Origin: Clostridium sp.
Lineage (GTDB): Bacteria > Bacteroidota > Bacteroidia > Bacteroidales > Bacteroidaceae
DNA length: 48,463 nt
Direction of reading: 5' to 3'
NCBI GenBank assembly: GCA_023663705.1
Contig: JAMPGY010000019.1
Coordinates: 1 to 48,463, forward strand
The position numbers and the translations under genes are program-made. Shown here in pieces: positions 1,285-37,280 of this stretch. Positions within the stretch are counted from its first letter, which is position 1. Each line of letters opens with the position of its first letter. The notes beneath the pieces were generated by a model that saw nothing but the letters and a program-made list of their open reading frames with translations, did not search any database and was not told where the DNA came from.

Positions 1285-1435
1285 CAAACCAAATATGATT
1301 AAAGGAATCGTCACCGAGGAACAGTTCAACCACATGCTGGCCAACCAATACACCGAAGAGGAACGCCGGCTGCTCTCCACGATGACCGAGGAGGACAACC
1401 CCATACTGATGATAATGGACATCAAACCCTTCTGA
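1201..1435 (+). repeat. 84-bp imperfect direct repeat
   Basis: Copies lie at 1201-1284 and 1352-1435, 151 bp apart and in the same reading frame relative to the coding sequence. They match at 71 of 84 positions, with an unbroken core of about 32 bp over the LSTMTEEDNP codons. The first is the 3' end of the propeller gene and the second ends the remnant ORF. Confidence 0.85.
1295..1435 (+). pseudogene. C-terminal remnant of a second propeller paralogue
   Basis: A 46-codon frame starts at ATG 1295 (MIKGIVTEEQ) and ends at TGA 1433-1435. Its last 27 codons plus stop match the end of the preceding propeller gene, including the shared stretch LLSTMTEEDNPIL. Over 84 aligned bases I count 71 identities. 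No signal peptide or propeller blade remains. The simplest reading is that a tandem paralogue was lost by recombination, leaving its tail. It could be translated because it keeps a start and stop, but a function is not expected. Confidence 0.6.
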
Positions 1436-1519
1436 TAAAACAATACATCTACAGCCCCGGCCCGCGTGATTAAGGGACAGAGCGCGCCGGGGCTGCGGAC
1501 ATCAACCCCTTATTATTCT

Positions 1520-2470
1520 ATGAAACAAAAATTATCAGCACTTGCCGCAACCGTAATCGTGATGGCCGCCGCACTGTTTACCTGCATCACCTACTACAGA
1601 GACGCAGTGAACGAACGCGAGATAGAGATAGGCAGGCTGACCAACGCCGTGACCCGCCTGGAGGACAAACTGCTGAAACAGGTGGAAGCCATACGCTACA
1701 CGCTGCCGGACAGCATGACGCTGACCGACACACACAAGGTGGCCACCTTCCTGAAGGACATAGCCGCCGACGGACCACACCTGGTAATCTACATAGACCG
1801 GATGCAATGCGAGTCGTGCTGGCAGGCGGAGCTGCGCGGCATGCAGCACCACCTGAAGCACACCGGGGCGCTGCCCCGCCCGCTGATTATGGCCGCCAAC
1901 TACAACCTGCGCGAAGCACGGCTGCTGGCTCAACGCTGCGCCACAGACATACCCCTCTACCTCGTGAACGAAACAGAGGCACTGCAACACATCGGACGGC
2001 TGCGCAAGCCGTTCTACTTCGTGCTGGAGGAAGGAGGCACGGTGGCCTCGGTGTACTATCCCGACGAGCAGTCGGTGGAGAGCGACTCTATCTATTTCAA
2101 CACCGTGGCCCGCAAATACGGGCGTAGACCGGCTCTGCCGGTGGCCGCCAGCAGCGGGAATACCCCGAAGGGCGTGGCCTTTGAGCAGGAGAAGATAGAC
2201 ATAGGCGACATAGGGATGAGAAAACTGAAGGAGGTGGTGTTCCGGCTGACCAACAACAGCACGGAGACGTGTGAGGTGCACGACATACGCATGTCGTGCA
2301 CCTGCCTGATGCTGAAACAGATGCCGCAGTGTGTGCTGCCGGGCGAGACAGCCGAGATAAAAGTGAACTTCCTGTCGACCACCAAAGGGCGATTCACGCG
2401 CACACTGGAACTGACCCTGAGCACCAGCACCCTGCCCTGCACACTGACCATACAGGGCAACGTGGTGTAA
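1520..2470 (+). CDS. Membrane-anchored thioredoxin-like/DUF1573 protein
   Basis: The 316-aa product starts at ATG 1520; an upstream GTG at 1466 would place 18 polar residues before the membrane segment and is less likely. Residues about 5-25 form one transmembrane helix, followed by a short charged, coiled-coil-like stretch (about 30-58). A thioredoxin-like region follows (about 60-200) with a CESC motif at 97-100 after VIYIDRMQ, the usual beta-strand then CxxC placement. The C-terminal third is a DUF1573 domain (IDIGDIGMRKL, MSCTCLML, PGETAEIKVNF), an immunoglobulin-like fold common in Bacteroidetes envelope proteins. It is probably periplasmic and tethered to the inner membrane, possibly redox active. 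It opens a run of nine tightly spaced genes. The substrate is unknown. Confidence 0.75.
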   Translation: MKQKLSALAATVIVMAAALFTCITYYRDAVNEREIEIGRLTNAVTRLEDKLLKQVEAIRYTLPDSMTLTDTHKVATFLKDIAADGPHLVIYIDRMQCESCWQAELRGMQHHLKHTGALPRPLIMAANYNLREARLLAQRCATDIPLYLVNETEALQHIGRLRKPFYFVLEEGGTVASVYYPDEQSVESDSIYFNTVARKYGRRPALPVAASSGNTPKGVAFEQEKIDIGDIGMRKLKEVVFRLTNNSTETCEVHDIRMSCTCLMLKQMPQCVLPGETAEIKVNFLSTTKGRFTRTLELTLSTSTLPCTLTIQGNVV

Positions 2471-2501
2471 ACTCTCCCCGAAAAAGAAAGAACAGACGGA
2501 G

Positions 2502-3197
2502 ATGAAGCGCAGTACAAGGCGGCACATCGGCACGGCGGCCCTACTCGTGGCAGTGGTGGCGGCGGGAATCACACTCAGGGTGTTTGTGGGCGAGATATGC
2601 AGGGTGGACACCTGCAGCATGGAACCGGCCATACAGCCCACCGAGATTCTGGTGTTTGACAAGCTGACCTACGGCTGCCGCATGCCGGTACGCATGGCCG
2701 ACATACCGATAGTGAACGTGTTCACGTGGGTGCCGCCCCTGGAACGGGCCGACCGCCGGCAGGACTGGGGTTTCCGGCGCGGATGGGGACTGCGCGAGCC
2801 CCGCGTGGGCGACGTGGCCATCTTCCGCTCGCCCGAGAACCCGGACGTGCTGCTGGTGAAGCGCATCCACCGCATCGTGGAGCCGGGCACCGCACTGTCC
2901 ATCGACCGAATGAGGCAGACGGTGGAACAGGTGGCCATGGCGGAGCACGTGCCCATCGTGAGACGGCTGGGCAGGACGTATGTGGGCGGCAAGGCGGACA
3001 CGGTGTATGTGACGCGCACCCGATTCTACGACATGCGCGGCGACAACACGACGAACAGCTATGACAGTCGCCGCTTCGGCCTCGTCCCCGCCCACGACGT
3101 AGTGGGGCGCATGGGGATTGTGCTGTGGTCGTGGGACAGCGATGCACCCTGGTGGAACAAGGTGCGCTGGAGCCGGATGATGCACCCCGTGAAATGA
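2502..3197 (+). CDS. S26 family signal peptidase
   Basis: The 231-aa protein has an N-terminal transmembrane segment (about 10-29). The serine box lies in CSMEPAIQPTEILV (Ser39) and the lysine general base in VLLVKRIHRIV (Lys120). A third conserved box, MRGDNTTNSYDSR, is present near residue 178. These are the catalytic Ser/Lys pair and the structural boxes of type I signal peptidases, which cleave exported preproteins on the outer face of the inner membrane. Length is within the family range. It sits 31 bp after the thioredoxin/DUF1573 gene and 20 bp before a polytopic protein. A dedicated peptidase for substrates of this locus is possible, but a general role cannot be excluded. Confidence 0.85.
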   Translation: MKRSTRRHIGTAALLVAVVAAGITLRVFVGEICRVDTCSMEPAIQPTEILVFDKLTYGCRMPVRMADIPIVNVFTWVPPLERADRRQDWGFRRGWGLREPRVGDVAIFRSPENPDVLLVKRIHRIVEPGTALSIDRMRQTVEQVAMAEHVPIVRRLGRTYVGGKADTVYVTRTRFYDMRGDNTTNSYDSRRFGLVPAHDVVGRMGIVLWSWDSDAPWWNKVRWSRMMHPVK

Positions 3198-3217
3198 CAA
3201 AACCCTAAAGCGGACAG

Positions 3218-4786
3218 ATGGAGAAAGAGAACAAATACCTGATGACGGCACTCGCCGTGGCGCTGCTCACAGCCTGCGCCACGGCTGTCCTGTCCATGCG
3301 CGGAGGCCACGTGATGAACGGCGACTACGCCCTCTACGTGTGTCAGGCGCTGAAGTTGCCGGCCGGCGGGCAGTGGCAGCTCTACCGCGACATGCAGCAG
3401 ATGCTGGCGCTGTCCACCTACCGCAACTATTCGCCCGTGCTCTACCCTTGGGGACTGCCGCTGATGCTGGCCCTGCCCGCACAGGTATGGGGCATCCACT
3501 ACACGGTGTTCAAACTGCTGGTGTTCGCCTGTCTGCCTGCCGCACTGCTGCTGATATATAAGGACGCACGCACACGAGGCGACGCTGCCGCGGGTGCATG
3601 GGTGATGGTGCTCACCGCCCTGAGCACCGCCGTGGGGCTGGCCGCCGAGCTCGTCATCACCACGCTGCCCTACCTGTTCATGCTCACCCTGACGCTGACC
3701 CTCACCTACCAGCTGACACAGCCCGGCACACCGACAGGGCGCACAACCCCGAATACGGCCGGAACCACCGGCCTGCGCAGCCGGAGGATGACCGCCGCGC
3801 TGCTTGGCGCCGCGCTCTTCCTGACCGTGCAGATCCGCACGGAGGGCATACTGCTGCTGCCCGCAATGGGCATACACCTGGCCGCCAACCGCCGGCATCT
3901 GGCACCGCCCCAAGCCCCGGCACGCGAGCGGTGGCTGACGGCACTGACGCCCTACGGCGTATGCCTGGCGCTGGCACTGCTGACGCTGCCCCAGCTGCCC
4001 GTGGGCTATCTGGTGCACGCCGGCCACACCCGCACGGTGGATTTCAGCGTGACGGACACGGCGGCCTACTATCTGTCCGCCGTGCCCCGCTGCTGCCTGT
4101 CGTTCCTGCGACCGGCCGGCGAAACGGGACTGATGATTGGCCCCGAGAGGGCGGCACAGACCGCCTGGTGGATGGTGGCGCTCTTCTGGACTCCTGTGGC
4201 CGCTGGACTGCTGACAGCCCCTCGTCAGACCACGGCCGGCAAGGTGTATGTGGCGCTCCACCTGCTGATGCTGGCCGCATGGCCCTACCAGACGGAGCGC
4301 TATGCGGTGCCCCTGGTGCCCGCGGTGCTCTATTTCGGGGTGAAGGGCGTGCAGGCCCTGATGCCCGCACGGATGCCCCGCCGAGCCCTCGCCTCAGGCG
4401 GCGTGCTTCTCTTCGTGAGCTGCTGCCAGCTGATGGCCTGGGGCATGCGGATGGGGTCGCTCCGCAAGGACTACGATGCCCAGAACCTGAACGTGGAGGG
4501 AGAGAGCGCACAGGAGGTGCTCCGCTACCTGAACACCCGCACGCGCCCGCAGGACATCATAGCCTGCGGCGAGAGCCGCACCATATACCTCTACACGGGG
4601 CGCCTGTCGTGCAACCTGTCGCTGTCGGCCACCGACACGGCGGCCAAGGCCGACTGGTATGTGGTGTTCAAGCACCGCCACAACTATCTGCAGCACCGGC
4701 CGGAGGAACTGGCCGCACAGCCGCACGTCTTCCGCCCCGTGCTGGACAACAAGGATTTCACCGTGTATAAAATAACGAAGCCATGA
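3218..4786 (+). CDS. Polytopic GT-C-like (family 39 type) membrane protein
   Basis: The 522-aa protein has about ten hydrophobic segments and a soluble C-terminal domain of about 100 residues. After the first helix there is a short acidic loop motif, NGDYALYVCQAL, and then YPWGLPLM, an arrangement typical of lipid-phosphate-sugar-dependent GT-C glycosyltransferases of the ArnT/PMT type. The C-terminal part (about 425-522) contains ALYLNTRTRP-like and IYLYTGRL segments and resembles the periplasmic tail of such enzymes. Its stop overlaps the start of a GT2 gene by 4 bp, so a pair is likely in which the GT2 enzyme makes a polyprenyl-phosphate sugar and this protein uses it in the periplasm. The acceptor is unknown. 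Confidence 0.65.
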   Translation: MEKENKYLMTALAVALLTACATAVLSMRGGHVMNGDYALYVCQALKLPAGGQWQLYRDMQQMLALSTYRNYSPVLYPWGLPLMLALPAQVWGIHYTVFKLLVFACLPAALLLIYKDARTRGDAAAGAWVMVLTALSTAVGLAAELVITTLPYLFMLTLTLTLTYQLTQPGTPTGRTTPNTAGTTGLRSRRMTAALLGAALFLTVQIRTEGILLLPAMGIHLAANRRHLAPPQAPARERWLTALTPYGVCLALALLTLPQLPVGYLVHAGHTRTVDFSVTDTAAYYLSAVPRCCLSFLRPAGETGLMIGPERAAQTAWWMVALFWTPVAAGLLTAPRQTTAGKVYVALHLLMLAAWPYQTERYAVPLVPAVLYFGVKGVQALMPARMPRRALASGGVLLFVSCCQLMAWGMRMGSLRKDYDAQNLNVEGESAQEVLRYLNTRTRPQDIIACGESRTIYLYTGRLSCNLSLSATDTAAKADWYVVFKHRHNYLQHRPEELAAQPHVFRPVLDNKDFTVYKITKP

Positions 4787-5511
4787 CCCACACCCCACCG
4801 CCCCCCGAACTGTCCATCGTAATGCCCTGCCTCAACGAGGAGCGCACGCTGCCCGCCTGCATAGCCAAGGCACGCGCCTTTCTGGAGCGCACGGGCATAC
4901 GCGGGGAAATCGTGGTGGCCGACAACGGTTCGACCGACGGCTCGGCCGGTATTGCCCGGCGGCTGGCCGACCGCGTGGTGAACGTGGAACAGCGGGGCTA
5001 CGGCCACGCGCTCGACGGCGGCATACGGGCCGCACGGGGGCGCTACGTGGTGATGGGCGACGCCGACGACAGCTATGACTTCGGGGCGCTGGACGACTTT
5101 GTGAACCGACTCCGAGCCGGCGCCGATATGGTGATAGGCAACCGATTCGGCGGAGGCATACGCCGCAAGGCCATGCCCCTGCTGCACCGCTACGTGGGCA
5201 ACCCGCTGCTATCGACCACGGCGCGTCTGCTCTTCCACAACCGCATCAGCGACTACCACTGCGGGTTGCGCGCCTTCTCCAAGGCGGCCTACCTGCACAT
5301 CCGCCCGATGTGTGGCGGCATGGAGTTTGCCACCGAGATGATTGTGAAGGCGCTGCAGGGAAGGCTGCGCGTGGAGCAGACCGACGTGGTGCTCCACCCC
5401 GACGGGCGCGACCGCCCGTCGCACCTGCGCACCTGGCACGACGGATGCCGCCACCTGCGCCTGATGCTGAGACTTTACATGAACCCTTTCACCGCACACA
5501 ACGCCCTATGA
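4783..5511 (+). CDS. GT2 family glycosyltransferase (polyprenyl-phosphate type)
   Basis: The 242-aa GT-A fold protein begins ELSIVMPCLNEERTL, followed by VVADNGSTDGSA and GRYVVMGDADDSYDF, the DxD-like metal and nucleotide-sugar site. Later motifs NRISDYHCGLRAFSK and MEFATEMIVKAL are typical of dolichol- or undecaprenyl-phosphate mannosyl/glucosyl transferases of the DPM1-like subgroup. There is no C-terminal membrane domain, so it should act on the cytoplasmic side of the inner membrane. It overlaps the upstream GT-C-like gene by 4 bp (ATGA) and the next lipoprotein gene by 4 bp, which indicates translational coupling. The sugar donor cannot be read from the sequence. Confidence 0.85.
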   Translation: MTHTPPPPELSIVMPCLNEERTLPACIAKARAFLERTGIRGEIVVADNGSTDGSAGIARRLADRVVNVEQRGYGHALDGGIRAARGRYVVMGDADDSYDFGALDDFVNRLRAGADMVIGNRFGGGIRRKAMPLLHRYVGNPLLSTTARLLFHNRISDYHCGLRAFSKAAYLHIRPMCGGMEFATEMIVKALQGRLRVEQTDVVLHPDGRDRPSHLRTWHDGCRHLRLMLRLYMNPFTAHNAL

Positions 5512-5963
5512 GAATACCCCACGCCGCAGCCTCAAGAAGATCCGCATCACACACGGCCGCACAGACCATCCTGCTGGCAGCTGCACTGGCAGCCACCGCA
5601 CTGACCACCGCCTGCCGACCGGCCGGAAACACCGCCACAGCGCCCCAAACGACCACCGCCGTGGCCGAGACGGACAGCGTGGACCTGGGCACGCTGGAAC
5701 CGGGCACCGCACGCACGGCCACCTACCGCATACGCAACACCGGCAGCCACCCGCTGCGGATTGCCGAGGTGCTCACCTCGTGCGACTGCACACAGGCTGA
5801 CTTCGACACCGGCGAGACAGCGCCGGGGGCCACCGCCACCGTGAGACTGACCTACCGCGCGGAGGCCTTTGCCGGCTATGTGTATCGCACAGCCGAGGTG
5901 AATGCCAACACGGACGGGCCCATCGCCCTGACACTGACCGCCACCGTGGCGGACAACGAATAA
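5508..5963 (+). CDS. DUF1573 lipoprotein
   Basis: The 151-aa product starts at ATG 5508, overlapping the stop of the GT2 gene. A signal peptide of about 35 residues ends in the lipobox LTTAC. The mature part is almost entirely one DUF1573 domain: VDLGTLEPGTARTATYRI, then LTSCDCTQADF and APGATATVRLTYRA. The SCDC motif matches the SCTC motif of the DUF1573 domain in the gene at 1520. An envelope location is expected; the molecular function of the family is not established. Two DUF1573 proteins bracketing a peptidase and two glycosyltransferases suggest a common extracytoplasmic task. Confidence 0.8.
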   Translation: MRIPHAAASRRSASHTAAQTILLAAALAATALTTACRPAGNTATAPQTTTAVAETDSVDLGTLEPGTARTATYRIRNTGSHPLRIAEVLTSCDCTQADFDTGETAPGATATVRLTYRAEAFAGYVYRTAEVNANTDGPIALTLTATVADNE

Positions 5964-5969
5964 TCCCGC

Positions 5970-5990
5970 CGGACGGCCTGCAGCCGTCCG
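5970..5990 (+). terminator. Intercistronic hairpin
   Basis: A perfect 8-bp stem (cggacggc / gccgtccg) with a 5-nt loop lies between the DUF1573 lipoprotein and the efflux adaptor. There is no following T-run, so it is more likely an mRNA-stability or partial attenuation element than a full terminator. Confidence 0.4.
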
Positions 5991-6011
5991 CGGGGAAAGA
6001 ACCAACTTAGG

Positions 6012-7109
6012 ATGAATCAGAAGAAGATGACGAGAAGAACGAAAATGAAAACAACCTGCCTGCTGACAGCGGCACTGGCCGCCGCACTGACCGCCTGCAA
6101 ACCGACAGACGGCCCGGAGGAATCCACCACAGCACAAGTACAGACGGAACCGGACAAACGCCCCACCGTGGAGACCATCGTGCTGCAACGGGGCAACTTT
6201 GCACGCGAGATACTGAGCAACGGCACGCTCGCCTCCATACGGCGCGCCGACCTGCGCTGGGGAGCATCGGGCATCATACGCCACATCTACGTGAAAAACG
6301 GGCAGCACGTGAGCGCCGGACAGGTGCTGGCCGAAGTGGATAAGGAACGCCTGAATATGGCGCTGATGCAGGCCGCCGACAGCAGGCAGCGCGCCCACCT
6401 GGAGATGCAGGACTTCCTCATCGGACAGGGATACCGGCTGGCCGACTCGCTCAACGTGCCGGAGAAGACGCTGGAACTGGCACGCATGAAGAGCGGCTAC
6501 GGACAGGCCTGCATCGCCTACGAAACGGCACGCATGGCGCTGCAGGAGGCCACGCTGAAGGCCCCGTTCGCCGGCACGGTGGCCAACCTGACGGCACGCC
6601 CCCACAACCAGGCCGGAGGGGGTGAGGTGCTGTGCACGCTGCTGGACAACAGCAGCATGGAAGTGACCTTCCCCGTGATGGAACACGAGGTGAGAGCCAT
6701 CAGCACGGGCGACACCGTGCAGGTGACGCTCTACACCGACGGCGACAGCACCACGCCGGGGCACATAACGGCCGTGAACCCCATGGTGGCCGACAACGGA
6801 CTGGCCGCAGTGACGGCGGTGATGGATCACACGCCCCGCCAGTGGTTCGACGGCATGAAGGTGAGGGTGAGCCTGCGGCAGAGCACACCGGGCATGCTGG
6901 TGGTGCCCAAGGAAGCCGTGGTGATGCGCGACGGACGCCGCGTAGTGTTCACCGTGAGGAACGGACTGGCCTACTGGAATTACGTGACGCTGGGACAGGA
7001 GAACAGTTTCAGCCACACCGTGAGCAAGGGGCTGAAAGAAGGCGACAGCGTGATTGTGAGCGGCAACCAGAATCTGGCCCACTTCTCGCCCATCCTCATC
7101 AAACCTTAA
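6012..7109 (+). CDS. RND efflux periplasmic adaptor (membrane fusion) lipoprotein
   Basis: The 365-aa protein has a signal peptide ending in LTAC, so it is a lipid-anchored adaptor. ATG codons at 6012, 6030 and 6045 are in frame; the last gives the shortest signal peptide. Domains in order: a barrel-sandwich half with IYVKNGQHVSAGQVLAEVD (about 95-115), a helical hairpin (about 118-175), the second barrel-sandwich half with LKAPFAGTVANLTARPHNQAG (split about 180-200), a beta-barrel and a membrane-proximal domain ending in LKEGDSVIVSGNQNLAHFSP. It connects the RND pump to the outer-membrane channel. It is the only adaptor for the two RND permeases that follow. Confidence 0.9.
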   Translation: MNQKKMTRRTKMKTTCLLTAALAAALTACKPTDGPEESTTAQVQTEPDKRPTVETIVLQRGNFAREILSNGTLASIRRADLRWGASGIIRHIYVKNGQHVSAGQVLAEVDKERLNMALMQAADSRQRAHLEMQDFLIGQGYRLADSLNVPEKTLELARMKSGYGQACIAYETARMALQEATLKAPFAGTVANLTARPHNQAGGGEVLCTLLDNSSMEVTFPVMEHEVRAISTGDTVQVTLYTDGDSTTPGHITAVNPMVADNGLAAVTAVMDHTPRQWFDGMKVRVSLRQSTPGMLVVPKEAVVMRDGRRVVFTVRNGLAYWNYVTLGQENSFSHTVSKGLKEGDSVIVSGNQNLAHFSPILIKP

Positions 7110-7124
7110 TCCCCCACCTGCGCC

Positions 7125-10100
7125 ATGATTGCTTACCTACTACGCCACCCCATCTCCGTGTTCGTGTCCTATGCCACGGTGTTTCTGCTCTCGTGCATCG
7201 CCTACACCCGGCTGCCCACCTCGCTACTGCCGGACATACCGATACCGGAGGTGGTGGTGCAGACCACGGGCGACAACCTGTCGGCCGAGGAGATGGAACG
7301 CGTGGTGGTGAAACCGCTGCGCCAACGCTTGATGCAAACGAGCCACCTGTCCGACCTGCGCAGTGAGGCACGAGACGGAAGCGGACAAATCACCCTGCAG
7401 TTCGACTACGGCACACGCATGGACCTGGCCTTCGTGGAGGTGAACGAGAAGGTGGACGCCGCCATGAACGCGCTGCCCAAAGACGTGAGCCGCCCGCAGG
7501 TGGTGAAGGTGAACGCCACCGACCTGCCGGTGTTTGACCTGGTGATGACACTGCGCGACGACCGACCGGGGGAGCCCACCGACGAAATGGACTTCATGCA
7601 GATGTGCGAACTGACGCGCAACACCCTGCGCCGGCGGCTGGAGCAACTGCCCGAGGTGTCAATGGCCGACCTGTCCGGACTGTGGGAGAAGGAACTGTTC
7701 ATCAGCATAGACCGCGAAGCAGCAGCCGCACTCGGACTGACGGAGAGCGACGTGGAGAAGGTGTTCAAGGAAAACAATATCGAGACGGGAAACGCAACGG
7801 TAAGAGACGGTGAGTTTGAGTTCAACGTGCGCTTCTCCTCCTCGCTACGCACAGCGGAAGACGTGGAAAACCTGTACTTACGCCACGGGCAGAGAATGTT
7901 GCAGCTGAAGGACATAGCCCGCACGGAGTTCCGGCGGGCACGCCTGCGGGGCGAGGTGTTCCACAACGGCAAGCGGGCCGTGGTGATGTCCGTCATCAAA
8001 CACCCCGACGTGAAGATGGACGACCTGCAGCAGAGCATCGCACAGACGGTGGACGCCTTCGGCCGCCAGTTTCCGAAGATAGACTTCCACATCGCTCACG
8101 ACCAGTCGGAACTGCTGGACGTGACGATGGGCAGCCTACGGCAGAGCCTGGTGCTGGGACTGCTGCTCATCTTCCTCATCACCTCGTTCTTCCTGCGCGA
8201 CGTACGCATGCCGGTGCTCATCGGAGCCACCATGCTGGTGTCGCTCGTCATCAGCATGGGGCTGTTCTATCTGGCCGGCCTGTCGCTCAACATCGTGTCG
8301 CTCGTGGGACTGATTCTGTCGGTGGGCATGATGATAGACAACGCCATCATCGTGACCGACGACATCAACCAATACCGGCAGGCGGGACTGGACATCGACG
8401 CGGCCTGCACGCGGGGCACCACGGAGGTGATAACGCCCATGCTGAGCTCGATGCTGACCACCGTGGCCGTATTTCTGCCCCTCATCTTCATGAGCGGCAT
8501 AGCGGGTGCGGTATTCTACGACCAGGCGCTGGCCATCACGCTGAGTCTGGGCGTGTCCTACGTGACGGCCATCACCTTTCTGCCCGTACTGTGCAAACTG
8601 ATGTTCCGTCGGCAGAAAGGGGGGGCCGCGGAGAGCGCACCGACACGGATGCTGCGGGGGTATGAATGGACCATCAACAGCACCTTTGCCCATCGCCGCG
8701 CCGTGTGTGTGGCCGTGGCCTGCACGCTGCCGCTGTGCTACGTGCTGTTCCGCACCATAAGCGTGGAGAAGATGCCCTTCATCACCCACCACGAGGCGGT
8801 AGTCCACGTGGACTGGAACGAGAATATCCACCCCGACGAGAATACGCGGCGCACCGGCGAACTGGCCGCCGCACTGGACAGCATCAGCGACGACTGTCTG
8901 GTCCTGACGGGACAGCAGCAGTTTCTGATAGGCAACAAGCGACGGCTAAACGTGGCGGAGGCCAAACTGTATGTGAACGTGCCCGAGGGAGAGGCCCAAG
9001 AGCGCACGCACAGGACTGTAGACTCCTTTATGAAGGCGCACTACCCGCAGGCCGTGTGGACGCTATCGCCGCCCGAAACCGTGTTTGAGGATTTGTTCTC
9101 CACCTCGCTGCCCGACCTGACGATAGAGCTGGCACCCGGCGACGGACAGTGGGACGTAACGGCCGACTCGCTGACAAGGCTGGCACGGCAGGTGAAGCAG
9201 CGGACGGGCGCGGCCGTGGGGCTGCCCCCCTATTCGACCCAGATACACGTGGCGCTCGACTACGAGAAGATGATAACCTACGAGGTGGAACCGGACGCGG
9301 TGGTGCAGGCACTGAAAAACGCCATGGGCGAAAACCGGTTTGCCACACTGCACGACTACGAGCAATATATCCCCGTACAGACCGAACGCGAGGGTCAAAG
9401 CCTGGAGCATATCCTGCACCACACGTTTGTGCAGAGCAAGGGGGGCGGCGCGCAATTCCCCCTGCATGAGTTTGCTTCCCTGTCGGCACAGACGGCCCCG
9501 CAGGCCATGGTGGCGGGAACGGGCGGACGCTTCATCCCGCTGCAGCTGGAACGGCTGGCACACGGCGCGCGACAGGAGGAAAGCGTGCGCCACCTGATGA
9601 GGGAGCACGGCGAATGGAGCACCCGCCTGAGCGGCGCATACTACCAGAACCGGGAAATGATGGACGATCTGCTGATGATTCTGCTGGTGTCAGTGGTGAT
9701 GATGTATCTCATCCTGACGGCCCAATTCGAATCATTTCTCCAACCGCTCATCCTGCTTGTGGAGATACCGATAGACGTGGCGGCCGCACTGCTGTGCCTG
9801 ATGGCCTTCGGGTATACGCTCAATCTGATGTCGGCCATAGGCATCGTGGTGACCTGCGGTGTCATTGTGAACGACTCCATCCTGAAAATAAACGTCATCA
9901 ACGAGTTGCGCGCCGGTGGCATGGCGCTCATGCCGGCCATACACGAGGCCGGACGCAAACGCCTGCGCTCCATCGTGATGACCTCGCTCACCTCGGTTTT
10001 TGCCCTCGTACCCATACTCTTCGGCCACGACATGGGCTCGGAACTGCAAAAGCCGTTTGCCATAGCCATGATAGGCGCCATGGTGGTGGGCACGCTGGTG

Positions 10101-10181
10101 AGCCTGTTCGTCATCCCGCTGCTCTACGCCCTGATTTATAAAGATAAAAAACAACCTGCCCATGAGACAAACCCTGCATAG
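7125..10181 (+). CDS. RND efflux permease, first of two
   Basis: The 1018-aa protein starts 15 bp after the adaptor gene. It has the duplicated RND layout: a helix at the N-terminus, a large periplasmic loop (about 35-330), six helices (about 335-520), a second loop (about 545-850) and the final helices. The TM4 motif is SVGMMIDNAIIVTDD, with a single Asp at the proton-relay site (IDN where AcrB has VDD). TM10 has VIVNDSILKIN in place of the Lys-containing AcrB motif. The pump should expel a hydrophobic or metal substrate using the proton gradient; the substrate is unknown. It overlaps the channel gene by 20 bp. Confidence 0.9.
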   Translation: MIAYLLRHPISVFVSYATVFLLSCIAYTRLPTSLLPDIPIPEVVVQTTGDNLSAEEMERVVVKPLRQRLMQTSHLSDLRSEARDGSGQITLQFDYGTRMDLAFVEVNEKVDAAMNALPKDVSRPQVVKVNATDLPVFDLVMTLRDDRPGEPTDEMDFMQMCELTRNTLRRRLEQLPEVSMADLSGLWEKELFISIDREAAAALGLTESDVEKVFKENNIETGNATVRDGEFEFNVRFSSSLRTAEDVENLYLRHGQRMLQLKDIARTEFRRARLRGEVFHNGKRAVVMSVIKHPDVKMDDLQQSIAQTVDAFGRQFPKIDFHIAHDQSELLDVTMGSLRQSLVLGLLLIFLITSFFLRDVRMPVLIGATMLVSLVISMGLFYLAGLSLNIVSLVGLILSVGMMIDNAIIVTDDINQYRQAGLDIDAACTRGTTEVITPMLSSMLTTVAVFLPLIFMSGIAGAVFYDQALAITLSLGVSYVTAITFLPVLCKLMFRRQKGGAAESAPTRMLRGYEWTINSTFAHRRAVCVAVACTLPLCYVLFRTISVEKMPFITHHEAVVHVDWNENIHPDENTRRTGELAAALDSISDDCLVLTGQQQFLIGNKRRLNVAEAKLYVNVPEGEAQERTHRTVDSFMKAHYPQAVWTLSPPETVFEDLFSTSLPDLTIELAPGDGQWDVTADSLTRLARQVKQRTGAAVGLPPYSTQIHVALDYEKMITYEVEPDAVVQALKNAMGENRFATLHDYEQYIPVQTEREGQSLEHILHHTFVQSKGGGAQFPLHEFASLSAQTAPQAMVAGTGGRFIPLQLERLAHGARQEESVRHLMREHGEWSTRLSGAYYQNREMMDDLLMILLVSVVMMYLILTAQFESFLQPLILLVEIPIDVAAALLCLMAFGYTLNLMSAIGIVVTCGVIVNDSILKINVINELRAGGMALMPAIHEAGRKRLRSIVMTSLTSVFALVPILFGHDMGSELQKPFAIAMIGAMVVGTLVSLFVIPLLYALIYKDKKQPAHETNPA

Positions 10182-11685
10182 TCGTGCCGCAGCATTGCTG
10201 ACGGCCGCCCTCGTGAGCCTGACAGCCACGGCCCAGCCCACGGAGACTCCCCGCCACACGGTGAGCCTGACGCTGGAGAAGGCCATAGACGTGGCCATAG
10301 ACAGTTCGCTCAACTCGCTGCTGGCCCAGAACAAATACCTGGCCGGATACTGGCAATACCGCTCTTACCAAGCCGAACGGCTGCCCTCGCTCAACTTCAC
10401 CACCACGCCCATACAGTACTACCAAAACTTTGTGAAACGATACGACTCGCAGCAGAACATCGACGTGTACAAACAGCAGAAGAACATCTACTCGTCGGCC
10501 GGACTGCAGGCCCGCCAGAACGTAGTGTGGACGGGCGGTGTGCTGTCGCTGGAGACCGACCTGGACTATCTGCGCAGCTTCGGACTGGACAAGAGCACCC
10601 AGTTCTCGTCCGTGCCCGTGAGGCTACGCTATTCGCAAGCGCTCTTCGGCTACAACGCCTTCAAGTGGAGCAAACGCATCGAACCGGTGGAATATGAGCG
10701 AGCACAGAAGGAACTGGTGTATGCCTTTGAGGAAATATCGGGCGTGGCCATCCGCTACTTCTTCAACCAAGCGCTCAACCAAATGCTCTACGATATGAGC
10801 CGGGACAACGTGGCGCGCTGCGACACGGCTTACCAGATAGGATTGGAGCGCCACCGCATAGGCAACATCACACAGGCCGACCTGCTGACCCTGAAGCTGA
10901 ATGCCATCAACGCGCGAAACAGCATGGAGAACACCCGGATGAATCTGGATAAGAGCACATTCGCCCTGGCCTCCTTTCTGCGCTACGCCCCCGACACGCA
11001 GTTCGACATCACGCTGCCTACCCGTCTGCCGGCTATCATCGTGCCCACCGACAAGGCGCTCGCCTACGCCCACGAGGGAAACCCTAAGATGCAGGAACTG
11101 GCACTGAGCCTGCTCAAGGCACAGCAGAACCTGGATCGCGTGGAGAAATCGCGCTTCACCTCATCGGTGTCACTCAGCGTGGGATTCAACCAGGCTGCCG
11201 AACGGTTCAAGGATGTGTATCACGAACCGCTGCGACAGGATGCCGTGAGCATCTCGTTCAGTGTGCCCCTGATGGACTGGGGCGTGGAAAAGGGCAAGGT
11301 GAACATGGCCAAGAGCAACCTCAACACGGCCGTCATCTCGAAAAAGCAGGCCGAGGAGGCCTTCGATCAGGAGGTGGTGCTGGCCGTGAGAGACTTCAAC
11401 ATGCGAAACGCCCAAATCGCATCGGCTGCCGAAGCCTGCAAGGTGGCCGAACTGGCCTACGAGGCCACCTATCAGCGCTACCTCATCGGCAAGGCCGACG
11501 TGAACACCCTGAGTATGGCACTGAGCCGCCGCAACGAAGCGCAGTCGGGCTACATCAACACGCTGTCGGCCTACTGGACGGGGTTCTACGAAATCAGGAA
11601 ATACACCCTATTTGACTTCGTACACAACCGCCCGCTGCAAGTGGAGACGGAGCGCATACTGAAGAGCAACAGCCGCAAACGGTGA
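10162..11685 (+). CDS. TolC-family outer membrane efflux protein
   Basis: The 507-aa protein begins with a signal peptide of about 25 residues ending in ATAQP. The rest is rich in long amphipathic helices, in two related halves (about 35-260 and 270-480), as expected for TolC channels. Segments such as IGNITQADLLTLKLNAINA and YLIGKADVNTLSMALSRR occupy equivalent positions in the two halves. It forms the outer-membrane exit duct of the tripartite pump. Its start lies within the end of the first RND gene, and its stop is 1 bp from the next RND frame. Confidence 0.88.
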   Translation: MRQTLHSRAAALLTAALVSLTATAQPTETPRHTVSLTLEKAIDVAIDSSLNSLLAQNKYLAGYWQYRSYQAERLPSLNFTTTPIQYYQNFVKRYDSQQNIDVYKQQKNIYSSAGLQARQNVVWTGGVLSLETDLDYLRSFGLDKSTQFSSVPVRLRYSQALFGYNAFKWSKRIEPVEYERAQKELVYAFEEISGVAIRYFFNQALNQMLYDMSRDNVARCDTAYQIGLERHRIGNITQADLLTLKLNAINARNSMENTRMNLDKSTFALASFLRYAPDTQFDITLPTRLPAIIVPTDKALAYAHEGNPKMQELALSLLKAQQNLDRVEKSRFTSSVSLSVGFNQAAERFKDVYHEPLRQDAVSISFSVPLMDWGVEKGKVNMAKSNLNTAVISKKQAEEAFDQEVVLAVRDFNMRNAQIASAAEACKVAELAYEATYQRYLIGKADVNTLSMALSRRNEAQSGYINTLSAYWTGFYEIRKYTLFDFVHNRPLQVETERILKSNSRKR

Positions 11686-11686
11686 A

Positions 11687-14600
11687 ATGCACGCCGCCAC
11701 CCAGACACACCGCACACATTCATCCCGAAACCCACCATTCAACCCCACCGTCATGACCCACCGCCTGTCCTTCGCCACACTCGTCTACTTCATCGCCCTG
11801 TCGGCCGTGGGGCTGTGCCTCATCCCCCGGCTCACCGTGAAGCAGGCACCCGGACGCACCCTGCCCCGCCTGTCGGTGTCCTTCTCCATGCACGGACAAT
11901 CGCCACGCGCTGTGGAGAGCGGAGCCACATCACAGATTGAGGCCATGCTGAGCCGCATCAGCGGCATCACGGACATCTCATCCGTATCGGGCAACGGCAC
12001 AGGGAAAATCACCCTCACGCTGGACAAGCAGACCGATGTGGACGCCGTGCGATTCGAGGTGTCCACCGCCATACGCCAGCTGTGGCCACAATTGCCCGCC
12101 GGAGTGAGCTACCCCGAGGTGGGCGCCTGGTATTCCGACTCGAGAGCCTCAGGGCCTCTGCTGTCCTACACCCTGAACGCGCCCGGCAATCCGGGCCTCA
12201 TCCTGCAATATGCCGAGACGCATATCCGCCCTGTCCTCACCCGCACCGAAGGCGTGGCCGCCGTGGAAATATCCGGAGCACGCCCCATGGAGTGGCTGCT
12301 GGAGTACGACCGCAACCGGCTGGAGGAAATGAACGTGACGCCAGCCGACATGGAACATGCCATAGCCACACAAATGGGCAGCAGGTTTGTGGGCATGACC
12401 AACCGGGCCGAGGAGAACTATTGCGCCGTATATGTGAAACCCACGGTGAGCCGTGCCGACCAACTGGCCCGCGTGGCCGTGAAGAAAGCCGACGGCAAGA
12501 TTGTGCGGCTGGACGAACTGGTGACCATCATCCACCGCGAACAGCCCCCTCGCACCTATCACCGCATCAACGGACTCACCACCATATATCTCACCATCTA
12601 TGCCGATGAACAAGCCAATCAGATTAGACTCAGCAATACTCTACGCAACAAGATCAAACAACTGGAGACCACATTTCCAGTCGGCTATGAATTGCGCTTG
12701 TCATCAGATTCCAGCGAATCCATCCGGGAGGAACTGACGGACGTGGCCATACGTACCTCGGCCACCCTGCTCATCCTGCTGGTGTTCGTATTTCTCGTAC
12801 ACCGCGACTGGCGCTACCTCACGGTGATCACCTTGTCAGTGGGTGCCAACATAGCCCTCTCGTTCATCCTCTATTACCTGTTGGACATCGAAATACAGAT
12901 CTACTCCGTAGCGGGCATAACCATCTCGCTGGGGCTGGTCATCGACAACATCCTCATCATGGCCGACCACATCCTACGCCACCGACGGATGAACATCTTC
13001 ATGGCCATACTGGCCTCCACACTCACCACCATAGCCTCGCTGGCCGTGGTGTTCTTTCTCGACGAAAAGGAACAGCTCAACCTGCTGGACTTCTCGCGGG
13101 TGCTCATCGTCAATCTGTCCGTTTCGCTGGCCGTGGCCCTGTTGCTGGTGCCGGCGCTGCTGCAGGGCACCAGCCTGAGCCCCACTGCGCAAGCCCCCAC
13201 ACTCCGACGCAAACGCCGCGTGGCACGTCTGACCCGTCTGTATGCCAATCAGATCGGTCATCTGTGCCGCCACAAGCGGGCATGCTGCGCGGCCTTCATC
13301 CTGAGTTTCGGGCTGCCCGTGTTTCTCATCCCCACCACCCTGCAAGGCAACGAACCGTGGGTGAAGCTGTACAACACGGTAATGGGGTCTGACGTGAGCC
13401 ACATGGTGCGCTCCTACACCGCCCCCCTGCTGGGCGGCAGCCTGAGGCTCTTCATGCAGCGCACGTCAAGCGGAGCACGCATGAGCCGCGACGCGAACGC
13501 CAGCGTGTCCGTCCGCGCTCACATGCCCTACGGCAGCAGTCTGGACGACATGGATGGCGCCATGCGCATCGTGGAGAGCGTCATCGCGCAGACGGAGGGC
13601 GTGAAGCATTACCACACACACGTGTATTCGGCTCAGACGGCACACACGTATGTGGCCTTCACCCGCGAGGGAATAGCCCGCCACATGCCCCAGCGGCTCA
13701 AGGATGCACTGGTGAAACGTGTGGTGCACATCGGCAACGCCACCTGGGACATCAGCGCGCCGGACCAGGGATTCAGCAACAACCTGGACAAGGGATACCG
13801 CTCCAACCGCATACGCCTGTCGGGTTACAACTACGACGAACTGACGAAACATGCCCTGCAGGTGTGCCGCCTGCTGGAGCAGCACCAACGCGTGCAGCGC
13901 ATTGCCGTGGTGCCCCACAGGGGATACAACGACCGCGATTACGAGGAATTTATCTTCGAGACCACCCCCGACCAACTGCTGGCGGGCAACCTGAACGTGG
14001 GCTCGCTGAACACGGCCATGCAGGCCATGCTGCCCCGACAGATCACAGCCGGTCACCTCATCAGCCGCGAGAACGGGCTGGAGGACATTAACCTGAGCCC
14101 CACCTCGACGAGGACGGCCGACATCTGGACCGTGGAGCACCGCCTGCAGCAGACCCCGACGGCCGCCTTCCGCATAGGCGAGGCCGCCACCATCACCCGT
14201 CGCCAACTGCCCCGCGAGATTGAAAAGGCCAACCAGCAGTATCAACTCTATGTGGAGTATGACTTTGTGGGTGGAGGTGAACTGAGCGGTGCCATACGCC
14301 GGCAAGTAATCGAAGAGTATGCCCACCACCTGCCCATGGGGTATGAAATCAGCGACGGAAATGCATACGACCACAGCACACAGCAGAAGCCGTCCGACCT
14401 CATCGTCATCCTGCTCATCATCCTCATCATCTACATCATCTGCTGCGTGCTCTACAATTCCTTCGTCATGCCGCTGGTGGTGATTGCCGTCATCCCGGTG
14501 TCGTTTATCGGCATATTTCTTAGTTTCAACGCCTTCAACATTCCGTTCAACCAAGGGGGACTCGCAGCGTTCATCCTGCTGAGCGGACTGACATGCAACT

Positions 14601-14959
14601 CGGTGATCTATCTGCTTAATGACTACGTATCGCTGCGACGCACGACGCGTCTCGGAGCGTTACAGGCTTATCTGAAAGCGTTTAACAGCAAGATTATCCC
14701 CATACTGCTCACAATACTCTCCACGGCCTTGGGCTTCGTACCGTTTATGTTCGACGCGAAACAGGACTCTTTTTGGATGGCTCTGTCGGTGGGCACCATC
14801 TGCGGATTGTTTTTCTCGGTGGTGGGACTAATGTTCTATCTGCCGATCATGCTCTGTCCGGCAGACCGCCCAGACGCACGGAAGGGACTTCGGAAGACGT
14901 GCGTCGCCCTATGGAACCGCATGGGGACGCATCGCCTGCAGGCGCTTAAAAAAACATAA
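11687..14959 (+). CDS. RND efflux permease, second of two
   Basis: The frame from ATG 11687 encodes 1090 aa; ATG 11753 (MTHRLSFATLVYF) begins right before the first helix and may be the real start, giving 1068 aa. The layout is again duplicated RND. TM4 has ISLGLVIDNILIMADHIL with one Asp, and TM10 has GLTCNSVIYLLNDY, without the Lys found in AcrB-type pumps. The protein differs strongly from the permease at 7125, so this is not a recent duplication. With one shared adaptor and channel, the two may form a mixed trimer as MdtB and MdtC do in enterobacteria, or alternate pumps. It is the last gene of the run. Confidence 0.88.
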   Translation: MHAATQTHRTHSSRNPPFNPTVMTHRLSFATLVYFIALSAVGLCLIPRLTVKQAPGRTLPRLSVSFSMHGQSPRAVESGATSQIEAMLSRISGITDISSVSGNGTGKITLTLDKQTDVDAVRFEVSTAIRQLWPQLPAGVSYPEVGAWYSDSRASGPLLSYTLNAPGNPGLILQYAETHIRPVLTRTEGVAAVEISGARPMEWLLEYDRNRLEEMNVTPADMEHAIATQMGSRFVGMTNRAEENYCAVYVKPTVSRADQLARVAVKKADGKIVRLDELVTIIHREQPPRTYHRINGLTTIYLTIYADEQANQIRLSNTLRNKIKQLETTFPVGYELRLSSDSSESIREELTDVAIRTSATLLILLVFVFLVHRDWRYLTVITLSVGANIALSFILYYLLDIEIQIYSVAGITISLGLVIDNILIMADHILRHRRMNIFMAILASTLTTIASLAVVFFLDEKEQLNLLDFSRVLIVNLSVSLAVALLLVPALLQGTSLSPTAQAPTLRRKRRVARLTRLYANQIGHLCRHKRACCAAFILSFGLPVFLIPTTLQGNEPWVKLYNTVMGSDVSHMVRSYTAPLLGGSLRLFMQRTSSGARMSRDANASVSVRAHMPYGSSLDDMDGAMRIVESVIAQTEGVKHYHTHVYSAQTAHTYVAFTREGIARHMPQRLKDALVKRVVHIGNATWDISAPDQGFSNNLDKGYRSNRIRLSGYNYDELTKHALQVCRLLEQHQRVQRIAVVPHRGYNDRDYEEFIFETTPDQLLAGNLNVGSLNTAMQAMLPRQITAGHLISRENGLEDINLSPTSTRTADIWTVEHRLQQTPTAAFRIGEAATITRRQLPREIEKANQQYQLYVEYDFVGGGELSGAIRRQVIEEYAHHLPMGYEISDGNAYDHSTQQKPSDLIVILLIILIIYIICCVLYNSFVMPLVVIAVIPVSFIGIFLSFNAFNIPFNQGGLAAFILLSGLTCNSVIYLLNDYVSLRRTTRLGALQAYLKAFNSKIIPILLTILSTALGFVPFMFDAKQDSFWMALSVGTICGLFFSVVGLMFYLPIMLCPADRPDARKGLRKTCVALWNRMGTHRLQALKKT

Positions 14960-28372: not shown

Positions 28373-28380
28373 CAAAGTTA
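28373..28380 (-). promoter_or_regulatory. -7 element of serB
   Basis: On the minus strand TAACTTTG matches TAnnTTTG and overlaps the sulfotransferase stop codon. It would give a leader of about 85 nt that contains the 28314-28353 hairpin. No -33 element is clear. Confidence 0.45.
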
Positions 28381-29490
28381 AGAATGTGTCTCGTAATCCC
28401 AGTCCTTCAGGGCATAGCCCCAATGCTCATTAACGAGTTGTACAGTGCGCGGCTTGTATTCATACTTGTTCTTTTTATAGCCCTTCTTCTTGTCCACATA
28501 AGCCTGAATATCGGCCTCAGCTTCGGCAAATCCAGGAATATGAAGTTGCTCATAGATGCGGCGTGTGATGTCCATGGCATCAGTTTCGAACGACTCGAAC
28601 TTCACCTCGAAGAGGTTGCCCTCGGGGATAAACTTCTTCTGTTCCTCATAGGCACGGTAGAGTTTGGTGTAGGACTCAAGAATGTTTCGCTCCATCTCCT
28701 CTGCACCGAAATTTTGCAATTGCAGGGGCTGAATGGTGTTGGTGTAGAAACTGCGCGTGCTCTCAAACACGGTGTAGGGGTTTCGCATCAGATAGACGAA
28801 CTTAGCATTGGGGAACAGCTCCACCAATGCCTTGACACGTCCCGTGTGGGGCGGATTCTTGGACAAATATTGCGTACCGCCCGTATTCCAGAGGGAAATC
28901 TTGACGAGTTTCAAGAACGTATCCTTAAACACCTGAAGTTCCTCGGGGGTGATTTTCTCGAAGGTGAGGTATTTGTCGCAATATTCCTGCATGAGCTTGG
29001 GGAAGAACCAGAAATCGTAATAGGAATAAGGCATCATGTTGGACAAGGCGAATTCCTCTTCCTGAGGCAGATCAGGCGCCAGTTCCATGTTATCTGTGGG
29101 TCGCTTGTCGGGCATGAGCCATCCCATCGTCTTCTTGAACATCGGCTGACCGAACATCATCAAATGGGGGAACACCGTCTGATAGGTGGTGGTGTAGCCG
29201 AAATGCTTGTCCTGCGCGAAGATGTTGTGTACGAAGGTGGTTCCGCTACGCCAGTGTCCAAGAATGAAGACGGGATCGTTCTCCAGCGGTTTGCCTGCCA
29301 AATGCTTGGCATAGAGTCGGTCCTGCAGAGGTACGAGCAGGCTGAGCAGCCGGCACACGCTCTTGGTGAGGTAGTATTTATTACGGTATTTGCCGTCTAT
29401 CTGCTGGTTGCGCGTCATCTCCTGAAAAGTCTTCCAGTCGGCTCCCACCAGTGTATTCACCGGCAATTTGCTAAATTCCAATAGTCCCAT
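28378..29490 (-). CDS. PAPS-dependent sulfotransferase
   Basis: The 370-aa cytoplasmic protein carries the PAPS 5'-phosphosulfate loop as GHWRSGTTF (78-86) and the 3'-phosphate site as RNPYTVFEST (236-245). A SKNPPHTGR segment lies at 210-218. No signal peptide or membrane helix is seen, so the acceptor is met in the cytoplasm. It is the last gene of an operon encoding a sulfate-type permease, CysC, CysD and CysN. From memory, the same order with a related sulfotransferase (BT0416 in Bacteroides thetaiotaomicron) makes cholesterol and steroid sulfates. That activity is therefore the leading hypothesis; a glycan or lipid acceptor is the alternative. Confidence 0.85.
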   Translation of the reverse strand: MGLLEFSKLPVNTLVGADWKTFQEMTRNQQIDGKYRNKYYLTKSVCRLLSLLVPLQDRLYAKHLAGKPLENDPVFILGHWRSGTTFVHNIFAQDKHFGYTTTYQTVFPHLMMFGQPMFKKTMGWLMPDKRPTDNMELAPDLPQEEEFALSNMMPYSYYDFWFFPKLMQEYCDKYLTFEKITPEELQVFKDTFLKLVKISLWNTGGTQYLSKNPPHTGRVKALVELFPNAKFVYLMRNPYTVFESTRSFYTNTIQPLQLQNFGAEEMERNILESYTKLYRAYEEQKKFIPEGNLFEVKFESFETDAMDITRRIYEQLHIPGFAEAEADIQAYVDKKKGYKKNKYEYKPRTVQLVNEHWGYALKDWDYETHS

Positions 29491-29502
29491 GATAGTAATG
29501 TG

Positions 29503-30930
29503 TTATTCTTTGATAATCTGAATGGCCAGTCCCTGACGGGAGAGATCGCGCACGGCCTTCTCGATAGCCTCATAGTGCTCCGGTCCGATGCCCAACTTGG
29601 GAAGGTTAAGCTCGGGCAACTGCTCCGTCTGTGCATCACCGTCGGAAATGGGTGCCACAATCATACCCACCGCACTGGTATTGTTCGTGATGGGATCGAT
29701 GAGGATGAAGGAACCCGTAGCACGGTTGTCGCGATAGGCGTCGAAGAAGAGTGTCTTGGCCGTGGTGATGTGAACCAGTCCGATTTCGTTGAGACGGAAG
29801 TCCTCCGCTTCCTTGTGCTCCATGGTGTTCACATCCACGCGGTAGCAAAGCGTGTCGATGGTGGCACGCGTAGTGTTGGTGTTGTGCTTCAGATAGAATT
29901 GCTTTTTGCGATCCATCGGTTCCTCATCCATCCATACGAGCATAGTCTCGAAATGACGGCTCACGTGAGGTTGGTTGTCGGGACGTACCAGCATCTCGCC
30001 GCGTGAGATGTCGATCTCGTCTTCAAGGGTTATGGTGACACACTGGGGACAGAAAGCCTCATCCAGTTCACCGTCGTAGGTGACAATACTCTTCACGTGC
30101 GAGGTCTTGCGCGAAGGCAACGCCATGATCTCATCGCCTTTGCGGATGACCCCTGATGCCACCTTGCCGCAGAAACCGCGGAAATCAAGGTTGGGACGCA
30201 ACACGTACTGCACCGGATAGCGGAAGTCGGTCATGTTGCGGTCGGTGTGAATGGGCACGGTCTCCAGGAAGTCGAGCAACGCGGGACCGTCATACCACGG
30301 TGTGCGGTCTGACTTCTCCACCACGTTGTCGCCGTCCAGTGCAGAGAGGGGGAAACAAGTCACATCCTCCACACCAAGCCCGTCGGTGAGCGCCTTGTAT
30401 TCGCCAACGATATTGTCGAACACCTGCTTATCGAAATCCACCAAGTCCATCTTGTTTACAGCCAACACTATGTGTTTGATGCCGAGCAGTGACACCAAAA
30501 AGGTGTGGCGGCGGGTCTGCGTGATCACTCCCGTACGAGCATCCACCAGAATGATGGCCAGATTGGCCGTAGAACCGCCGGTAATCATGTTGCGGGTGTA
30601 TTGTTCATGGCCCGGAGTGTCGGCAATGATAAACTTGCGCAGGTTGGTGGAGAAATAGCGGTAAGCCACGTCTATCGTGATCCCCTCCTCGCGTTCGGCC
30701 TTCAGGCCGTCCAGCAGCAGTGCGTAGTCGATATGCTCACCGGCATTGCCCACACGTTTGCTATCGCGCTCCAGTGCCTGGAGCTGGTCTTCGTATAACT
30801 TCTTGCTGTCGAAGAGCAGGCGGCCGATGAGTGTGGATTTACCGTCGTCCACCGATCCGGCCGTGAGCAGACGGAGCAAATCCTTCTTCTCGTCCTGGTC
30901 TAAAAATTCCTTTATATTCGTTGTTGCCAT
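29503..30930 (-). CDS. cysN: Sulfate adenylyltransferase subunit 1 (GTPase)
   Basis: The 475-aa translation-GTPase-like protein has the P-loop GSVDDGKST (25-33), switch [14 protein letters not shown] and NKMDLVDF. Two beta-barrel domains follow (about 240-440). It drives ATP sulfurylase with GTP, making adenosine 5'-phosphosulfate together with CysD. There is no fused CysC domain; cysC is a separate gene three places upstream-to-downstream in the same operon. Gaps are 17 bp to cysD and 12 bp to the sulfotransferase. Confidence 0.96.
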
Positions 30931-30947
30931 AGTTTTCTTCTTTCGTT

Positions 30948-31856: not shown

Positions 31857-31870
31857 ATTGTCTTCTATTT

Positions 31871-37000: not shown

Positions 37001-37280
37001 CCGTCTGACCGCCAAAGGCGAGCAGGATGCCCTGAGGACGTTCCTTCTCGATTACCTTCTCCACAAAATACGGAGTGACGGGCAGGAAGTAAATCTGGTC
37101 GGCCACACCTTCGCTGGTCTGCACCGTGGCGATATTGGGATTAATCAGCACGGTTTCAATACCCTCCTCTTTCAGGGCTTTCAATGCCTGAGAACCGGAA
37201 TAGTCAAACTCGCCGGCCTCACCGATTTTCAGCGCACCGGAACCCAGCAACAGGACTTTCTTTATATTCTTGTCAATCAT
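34056..37280 (-). CDS. carB: Carbamoyl-phosphate synthase large chain
   Basis: The 1074-aa cytoplasmic enzyme has two homologous ATP-grasp halves. The first starts [24 protein letters not shown] (shown in parts: [14 protein letters not shown]), the second [20 protein letters not shown] near residue 560. Further motifs are [16 protein letters not shown] and [20 protein letters not shown]-like segments. A C-terminal MGS-like allosteric domain (about 940-1060) is present. It makes carbamoyl phosphate from bicarbonate, glutamine-derived ammonia and 2 ATP for pyrimidine and arginine synthesis. Length matches E. coli. It lies 13 bp after carA and 14 bp before the permease gene of the sulfation set. 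Confidence 0.97.
   Translation of the reverse strand: [1074 protein letters not shown]

Follow-up and report, generated by a model that had tools for sequence, protein, structure and literature searches.

A nine-gene operon of a Bacteroidaceae genome as a candidate locus for peptide maturation and export

We analyzed a 48,463-nucleotide stretch of DNA, hereafter the window, which is the entire contig C10 (JAMPGY010000019.1) of a 43-contig assembly (GCA_023663705.1) labeled Clostridium sp. and placed by GTDB in the family Bacteroidaceae. It carries a forward-strand operon (1520–14959) that joins a signal peptidase and glycosyltransferase genes to an export pump with two permeases of the RND family. 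With a probability of roughly one half, we read this operon as one variant of a peptide maturation-and-export locus that is widespread in the bacterial order. The reading draws on the content and order of the genes, their recurrence and co-occurrence across genomes and the intact catalytic motifs of their products; from these we infer cleavage, glycosylation and transport of a peptide, as well as the role of the product.

Gene order and recurrence of the operon

The nine genes encode, in order, a membrane-anchored thioredoxin-like protein with a DUF1573 domain (Trx/DUF1573; 1520–2470), an S26 signal peptidase (2502–3197), a candidate polytopic glycosyltransferase of the GT-C type (3218–4786), a family 2 glycosyltransferase (GT2) resembling polyprenyl-phosphate-sugar synthases (4783–5511), a lipoprotein-like DUF1573 protein (5508–5963), an RND periplasmic adaptor (6012–7109), a first RND permease (RND1; 7125–10181), a TolC-type outer-membrane channel (10162–11685) and a second permease (RND2; 11687–14959). 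A first-pass annotation, made without database searches, had described this layout, and the open reading frame (ORF) positions bore out its co-directional genes, coordinates, gaps and overlaps (+31, +20, −4, −4, +48, +15, −20 and +1 bp). Pfam likewise agreed with its gene identities, returning DUF1573 for the first and fifth products, Peptidase_S26, Glycos_transf_2, HlyD, ACR_tran twice and OEP. The same annotation had noted a shared high GC content. GC is indeed high in the window operon (61.7% versus 51.4% for positions 15000–48463), but the orthologous operon of another genome of the genus (G174; L017:5280–18322) has only 48.2% beside a flank of 56.1%; because the two differ so strongly, GC content is no evidence of unity.

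The gene order recurs in relatives. On a single contig, G174 holds the complete window order preceded by a second glycosyltransferase pair and a cysteine-rich peptide of 172 amino acids (aa): GT2, GT-C, peptide, six-bladed beta-propeller, Trx/DUF1573, S26, GT-C, GT2, DUF1573, adaptor, RND1, TolC and RND2. A genome of another genus (G091) has propeller, Trx/DUF1573, S26, O-antigen ligase, adaptor, RND1, TolC and RND2, and one from another family of the order (G259) has two GT-C genes, S26, GtrA, adaptor, RND1, TolC and RND2.

To count such loci, we queried 201 family genomes with RND2 alone (E ≤ 1e-90) and found it in 42 genomes from 10 of 30 genera. Forty upstream stretches were fetched, giving 42 loci with the window and G174, and were read with profiles derived from these family loci. 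Partner genes were common: 22 loci held S26, 24 an O-antigen-ligase-type (Wzy_C) protein, 22 a transglutaminase-like protein (a weak label, two proteins falling below the Pfam cut-off and one above), 28 a propeller and 36 any partner or motif-bearing peptide. Nine loci have at most 5 kb before the pump; among the remaining 33, the corresponding counts were 21, 22, 22 and 27, with a motif-bearing peptide in 17 (the G174 peptide lies outside the stretch counted) and any of these in 32. None of 20 carB neighborhoods from the same family, a random-locus control rather than a control of unrelated RND pumps, held a partner gene, and one held an unrelated adaptor–RND pair. At the level of the order, 35 of 247 genomes had RND2; of the 20 neighborhoods fetched from these, 12 held one or more partner genes and three had an S26-family gene between RND1 and RND2. 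We therefore rejected the possibility that the two halves of the operon are merely neighbors, on the strength of the G174 and G091 orders, the RND1–S26–RND2 loci and the counts against the carB control, and linkage of the gene set is hardly in doubt.

Co-occurrence across the 201 genomes pointed the same way. System-type S26 genes (at least 155 bits with alignment A1) occurred in 42 genomes, including the window species' own genome and G174, both added by hand, and Pfam matches to the NVEALA peptide family in 36. The overlap with RND2 genomes was 33 for S26 (8.8 expected; 31 of 40 without the two genomes added by hand) and 26 for NVEALA (7.5 expected), while S26 and NVEALA coincided in 30 (7.5 expected); for any of the three pairs, the observed overlap was not reached once in 20,000 shuffles within genera. 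Of 47 system-type S26 hits, 25 shared a contig with RND2 at a distance of no more than 30 kb (median 9.9 kb), two shared one at greater distances (36 and 961 kb) and nine were in genomes without an RND2 hit. Among the latter genomes, G108 and G125 have S26 next to a divergent double pump, and G197 has at least RND1, adaptor and TolC up to a contig end, so the RND2 threshold undercounts.

Candidate peptides and the signal peptidase

If the locus exports a peptide, precursor genes should stand near it, and several do. One genome (G075) has seven NVEALx peptide genes inside the pump operon, between the adaptor and RND1, and 28 of the 201 genomes have members of PF14055 (NVEALA) above the cut-off, many on the pump contig. 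Around 78 propeller hits, we picked 49 small ORFs by position just upstream of the propeller and by a basic, hydrophobic start; 29 carry the site motif N[VIA]E[AV][LI]x and two carry NASPAED. A separate motif-based scan gave 70 candidates; at least one of the five residues that follow the site is acidic in 66, and at least two cysteines follow it in 67. Two of the 70 (in L045 and L053) look like chance frames. Type I signal peptidases favor small residues at positions −3 and −1, and both NVEALA (A-L-A) and INASPA (S-P-A) fit that rule; the scan itself lends the rule no support, because its pattern demands small residues at those positions. In the 70 candidates, the median distance from the hydrophobic run to the presumed site is 19 residues, more than expected of an ordinary signal peptide, which led us to propose a dedicated enzyme.

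The peptides of the window lineage resemble the NVEALA family in their lysine-rich start, hydrophobic core, A-x-A-type site and cysteines in the tail. They differ in length (172 and 190 aa) and in their presumed sites, INASPAED in the peptide of contig C38 and ALA-TVD in that of contig C19. The latter (L099:12506–13078, near a contig end) contains cysteines and is 37% identical to the C38 peptide over a short stretch. At other loci, two propeller-paired peptides (L018:6813–7319 and L030:1916–2326) have long threonine/serine runs, and in G080 a radical SAM protein (PF04055; L024:8160–9173) adjoins DUF1573, possibly reflecting a further peptide modification.

Upstream of its nine genes, the operon is larger than first described: a propeller gene (DUF5128/DUF4934; PF17170, E = 4.1e-32) with a lipoprotein-like N terminus occupies 1–1284, its 5' part lost at the contig end, and stands before Trx/DUF1573 as in G174. 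It has paralogues on C38, where a search of the same genome also found a truncated copy of the start of the Trx/DUF1573 gene. In operon direction, the C38 stretch (L005) carries the 172-aa peptide, a propeller and the truncated Trx/DUF1573 start; past a split propeller on the opposite strand follow another propeller, a GT2, a GT-C of 460 aa (59% identical to a GT-C of G174) and a third propeller, which reaches its stop codon at the contig end. The segment L005:6847–7070, located after the peptide–propeller pair, copies window 1351–1574 (the tail and the first Trx/DUF1573 codons) and is a truncated duplicate of the operon start. Given the single-contig arrangement of G174 and the content of C38, the operon most likely extends past the start of the window towards a peptide gene, across a hypothetical junction between C38 and C10.

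Between the propeller and Trx/DUF1573, window 1297–1436 is an orphan remnant duplicating a propeller gene 3' end (1297–1435 is 86% identical to C38:3779–3641, and 1345–1436 is 95% identical to C38:92–1). Propeller gene ends are nearly identical between window and C38 (97% for 1–191, 95% for 1345–1436) around cores of ~68%, a further end was noted at 1195–1284, and C38 (L005:1–9809) holds one copy that is split and another that seems to have lost an internal segment. Together with the orphan tail, this pattern looks like recombination or cassette shuffling. The Bacteroides promoter pattern TTTG-N17-22-TANNTTTG had no match on the forward strand of the window and one, as a pattern match only, ~285 bases before the C38 peptide gene.

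The S26 protein has the domain and the catalytic dyad of a signal peptidase. It scored 75.7 bits with PF10502 (cut-off 22.9) and 73 bits with TIGR02227 (cut-off 47), its serine (SMEP) and lysine (VKR) boxes are intact, and Ser39 and Lys120 are invariant in 17 aligned sequences, giving the Ser/Lys dyad. The dyad and a GDN...S.DSR box are shared with the type I signal peptidase LepB (TIGR02227), whereas its length of 231 aa contrasts with 474–530 aa in 14 housekeeping LepB proteins of the family, and in a tree of 56 sequences it falls outside LepB with moderate support. There, the window, G174 and G259 proteins form their own branch (100/99), apart from the housekeeping LepB sequences; the window and G259 proteins are 38% identical over 219 aligned positions (BLASTP). 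The 23 LepB-labeled sequences, which include nine shorter S26 genes adjoining lepB, form one side of the tree (90/91, not starred), and its deeper forks are moderately supported. Most system sequences group in another clade (25 of its 26 members), outside which the window and G174 proteins fall (99/97), possibly reflecting more than one recruitment of S26; we read the tree as suggesting at least two pump-linked S26 lineages. The window type is present in two of 18 genomes of the genus; an initial search at E ≤ 1e-20, too strict a threshold, had returned only the window's own gene.

Redox, glycosyl and pump proteins

The product of the first gene has one N-terminal hydrophobic segment and a DUF1573 match (E = 7e-19). 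Its thioredoxin part, proposed by the first-pass annotation, held up: the CxxC is invariant in nine of nine aligned sequences, the window's included, and the profile of these nine matches ResA in the PDB (E = 8.4e-5). No thioredoxin Pfam family was among the matches of the nine members, and a single-sequence fold model was poor (predicted local distance difference test score 42.1). The second DUF1573 protein matches PF07610 (E = 8.4e-22).

The candidate GT-C protein itself had no Pfam match. Among five aligned members, weak matches were found to PMT_2 (two; best E = 0.0011), Alg9-like (one; 8e-7) and PMT (one; 7.7e-5) families; a GDxAxY motif near the N terminus is invariant, seven hydrophobic segments were counted and a PDB profile search gave nothing useful. 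The GT2 protein has PF00535 above its cut-off (E = 5.9e-27), a DAD motif, no hydrophobic segment and PDB matches that include ArnC and a dolichol monophosphate mannose synthase, while its best equivalog, AglJ, scored 94.8 against the 325 required. In most relatives this place belongs to the Wzy_C ligase (PF04932, 69.6 bits; cut-off 31.7), which in 15 of 22 S26 loci is no more than 300 bp away from S26; in the window and G174, GT-C and then GT2 directly follow S26 in the ligase's place, and G259 has two GT-C-type proteins (one Alg9-like) before its window-type S26 and GtrA after it. Different enzymes for the same kind of chemistry, the periplasmic-side transfer of a lipid-linked sugar, thus occupy the same part of the operon, and it is chiefly on this ground that we count sugar transfer as part of the pathway. 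A lipid-linked sugar synthase with a polytopic transferase, or a Wzy_C ligase, recalls O-glycosylation by polyprenyl- or dolichyl-phosphate-sugar synthases with PMT-type GT-C enzymes and by WaaL/PglL-type ligases; the difference lies in the putative acceptor, a small secreted peptide.

The operon encodes all parts of an RND tripartite pump. The adaptor has a lipobox-like LTAC and scored 168.9 bits with TIGR01730 (cut-off 94.9), the permeases scored 533.9 (RND1) and 329.5 bits (RND2) with ACR_tran, and the channel matched PF02321 (OEP; E = 2e-23). RND2 probably starts near position 11753, since most homologues align only from residue 20–28. The aspartate taken for the proton-relay residue of the fourth transmembrane segment is kept in both permeases (Asp405 in 41 RND1 sequences; four RND2 sequences), as is an NDSILK stretch in all 41 RND1 sequences. 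Neither permease reached the cut-off of 1250 for the NCBIfam multidrug family RND_permease_2 (RND1 488.9, RND2 274.1). MdtABC of Escherichia coli has two RND genes as well, with an MdtB2–MdtC unit reported (PMC4107485). The window operon shares with MdtABC–TolC its two different permeases and one adaptor, and differs in having its own TolC and attached peptidase and glycosyl genes. By analogy with MdtBC and from the operon layout, RND1 and RND2 would probably form a mixed trimer.

Weighing the proposed pathway

In the proposed pathway, a small precursor with an N-terminal hydrophobic segment would cross the inner membrane by Sec, and the dedicated S26 peptidase would cut it at an A-x-A-type site some 20 residues past its hydrophobic core, after NVEALA in most relatives and between INASPA and ED in the window lineage. 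The Trx/DUF1573 protein may handle the cysteines of the mature peptide, GT2 would make a polyprenyl-phosphate sugar and GT-C would transfer the sugar to the peptide in the periplasm, a Wzy_C protein replacing the pair in most relatives. The adaptor–RND1–RND2–TolC pump would then capture the product from the periplasm and expel it, and the peptide-paired propellers could serve as cognate binding, receptor or immunity proteins. By judgment rather than computation, we consider peptides the likely substrate and their cleavage by S26 fairly likely, we lean towards export by the RND pump, and we give glycosylation an even chance. The first-pass annotation had suggested a secreted product that is cleaved, modified with sugar and expelled; with peptide genes found where that idea needs them, it is the best available account, its biochemical steps being conjectural.

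Several observations weigh against a peptide pathway. The window holds no peptide gene, ending where one might stand; the species' peptides are on C38 and C19, with contig order unproved, and PF14055 had no match at E ≤ 1 in its genome. Among the 49 position-picked ORFs, 18 carry neither motif and some are plainly chance frames. The first-pass annotation had named separate loci for the two halves in relatives as its refuting condition. That check came out mostly in favor of the annotation, the linked order being kept in G174, G091 and G259, but nine of the 42 RND2 genomes gave no hit for a system-type S26, 11 of the 47 S26 hits sit in an RND2 genome on a contig other than that of RND2, and the G149 peptidase is 961 kb from RND2. 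No partner genes were present in the stretch read at eight of 20 order-level loci (two under 4 kb, two with 20 kb), and the transglutaminase-like gene was not seen beside the window or G174 operon. The S26 proteins of the window, G174 and G259 fall on the same side of the tree as LepB but not among the LepB sequences. Two S26 lineages would also weaken the case for simple common descent; a twofold origin of the association would strengthen the functional tie. Finally, we know of no RND pump with demonstrated export of peptides of such size.

The best-surviving alternative, which we hold unlikely, is export of a glycolipid or envelope glycan: GT2 and GT-C (or Wzy_C) would build a sugar-lipid or capsule-like product for the RND pump, S26, thioredoxin-like protein and propellers would serve assembly, and the peptides would be passengers. 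Many RND pumps carry amphiphiles, glycosyl genes lie at most two genes from the pump in the window and G174, GtrA directly precedes it in G259 and Wzy_C is in 22 of the 33 longer loci. That account leaves unexplained the signal peptidase in 21 of these 33 loci, the peptide genes within the pump operon and the S26–NVEALA excess (30 versus 7.5). Less probable still is surface display, in which propellers and transglutaminase-like proteins would hold matured peptides as a scaffold or for adhesion while a small signal or by-product leaves through the pump; propellers are common (27 of 33), as are transglutaminase-like proteins (22 of 33), and some of the latter have F5/F8-type or ricin-B domains, but display needs no TolC-linked pump in the peptides' operon. 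An ordinary multidrug or detergent efflux pump beside envelope genes by chance is very improbable: both permeases are clear ACR_tran members, E. coli MdtABC likewise has two RND genes (PMC4107485) and our neighborhood control was carB rather than unrelated RND pumps, but the multidrug scores (489 and 274) fall far below 1250 and the neighborhood recurs against a clean random-locus control.

The first-pass annotation knew of no named system with this gene combination, and our literature search gave only gene-table or unrelated matches: it found no description of the system or of NVEALA, most subscription papers and all bioRxiv preprints lying outside its coverage. Separate rows of iron tables for Bacteroides thetaiotaomicron list BT0662 (O-antigen ligase), BT0664 (propeller), BT0667 (lepB) and BT0669 (RND adaptor), and those rows propose no system (PMC10434189). 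Elsewhere in the window, 34056–37280 was considered as a second RND pump because of its length and rejected, Pfam identifying the carbamoyl-phosphate synthase large subunit (carB). Positions 28378–31958 hold sulfotransferase, EF-Tu-type GTPase and PAPS-reductase-domain genes in series, which look like a sulfate-activation set, and 40395–44225 encodes a 1276-aa GH20 hexosaminidase with a MucBP match.

Returning to peptide maturation and export, we tentatively suggest, as a possibility rather than an expectation, that these loci represent an undescribed class of secretion pathway, in which, entirely outside the cytoplasm, small Sec-delivered cysteine-rich peptides would be cut by a dedicated S26, modified by interchangeable glycosyl modules (GT-C with GT2, or a Wzy_C ligase) and released as glycopeptides by a heteromeric RND–TolC pump, with rapidly shuffled propellers as cognate receptors or immunity proteins, for signaling or competition among these bacteria. 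If this is true, the NVEALA peptides could be assigned their peptidase, their modification and their way out of the cell, and an RND pump would serve dedicated peptide secretion rather than drug efflux.

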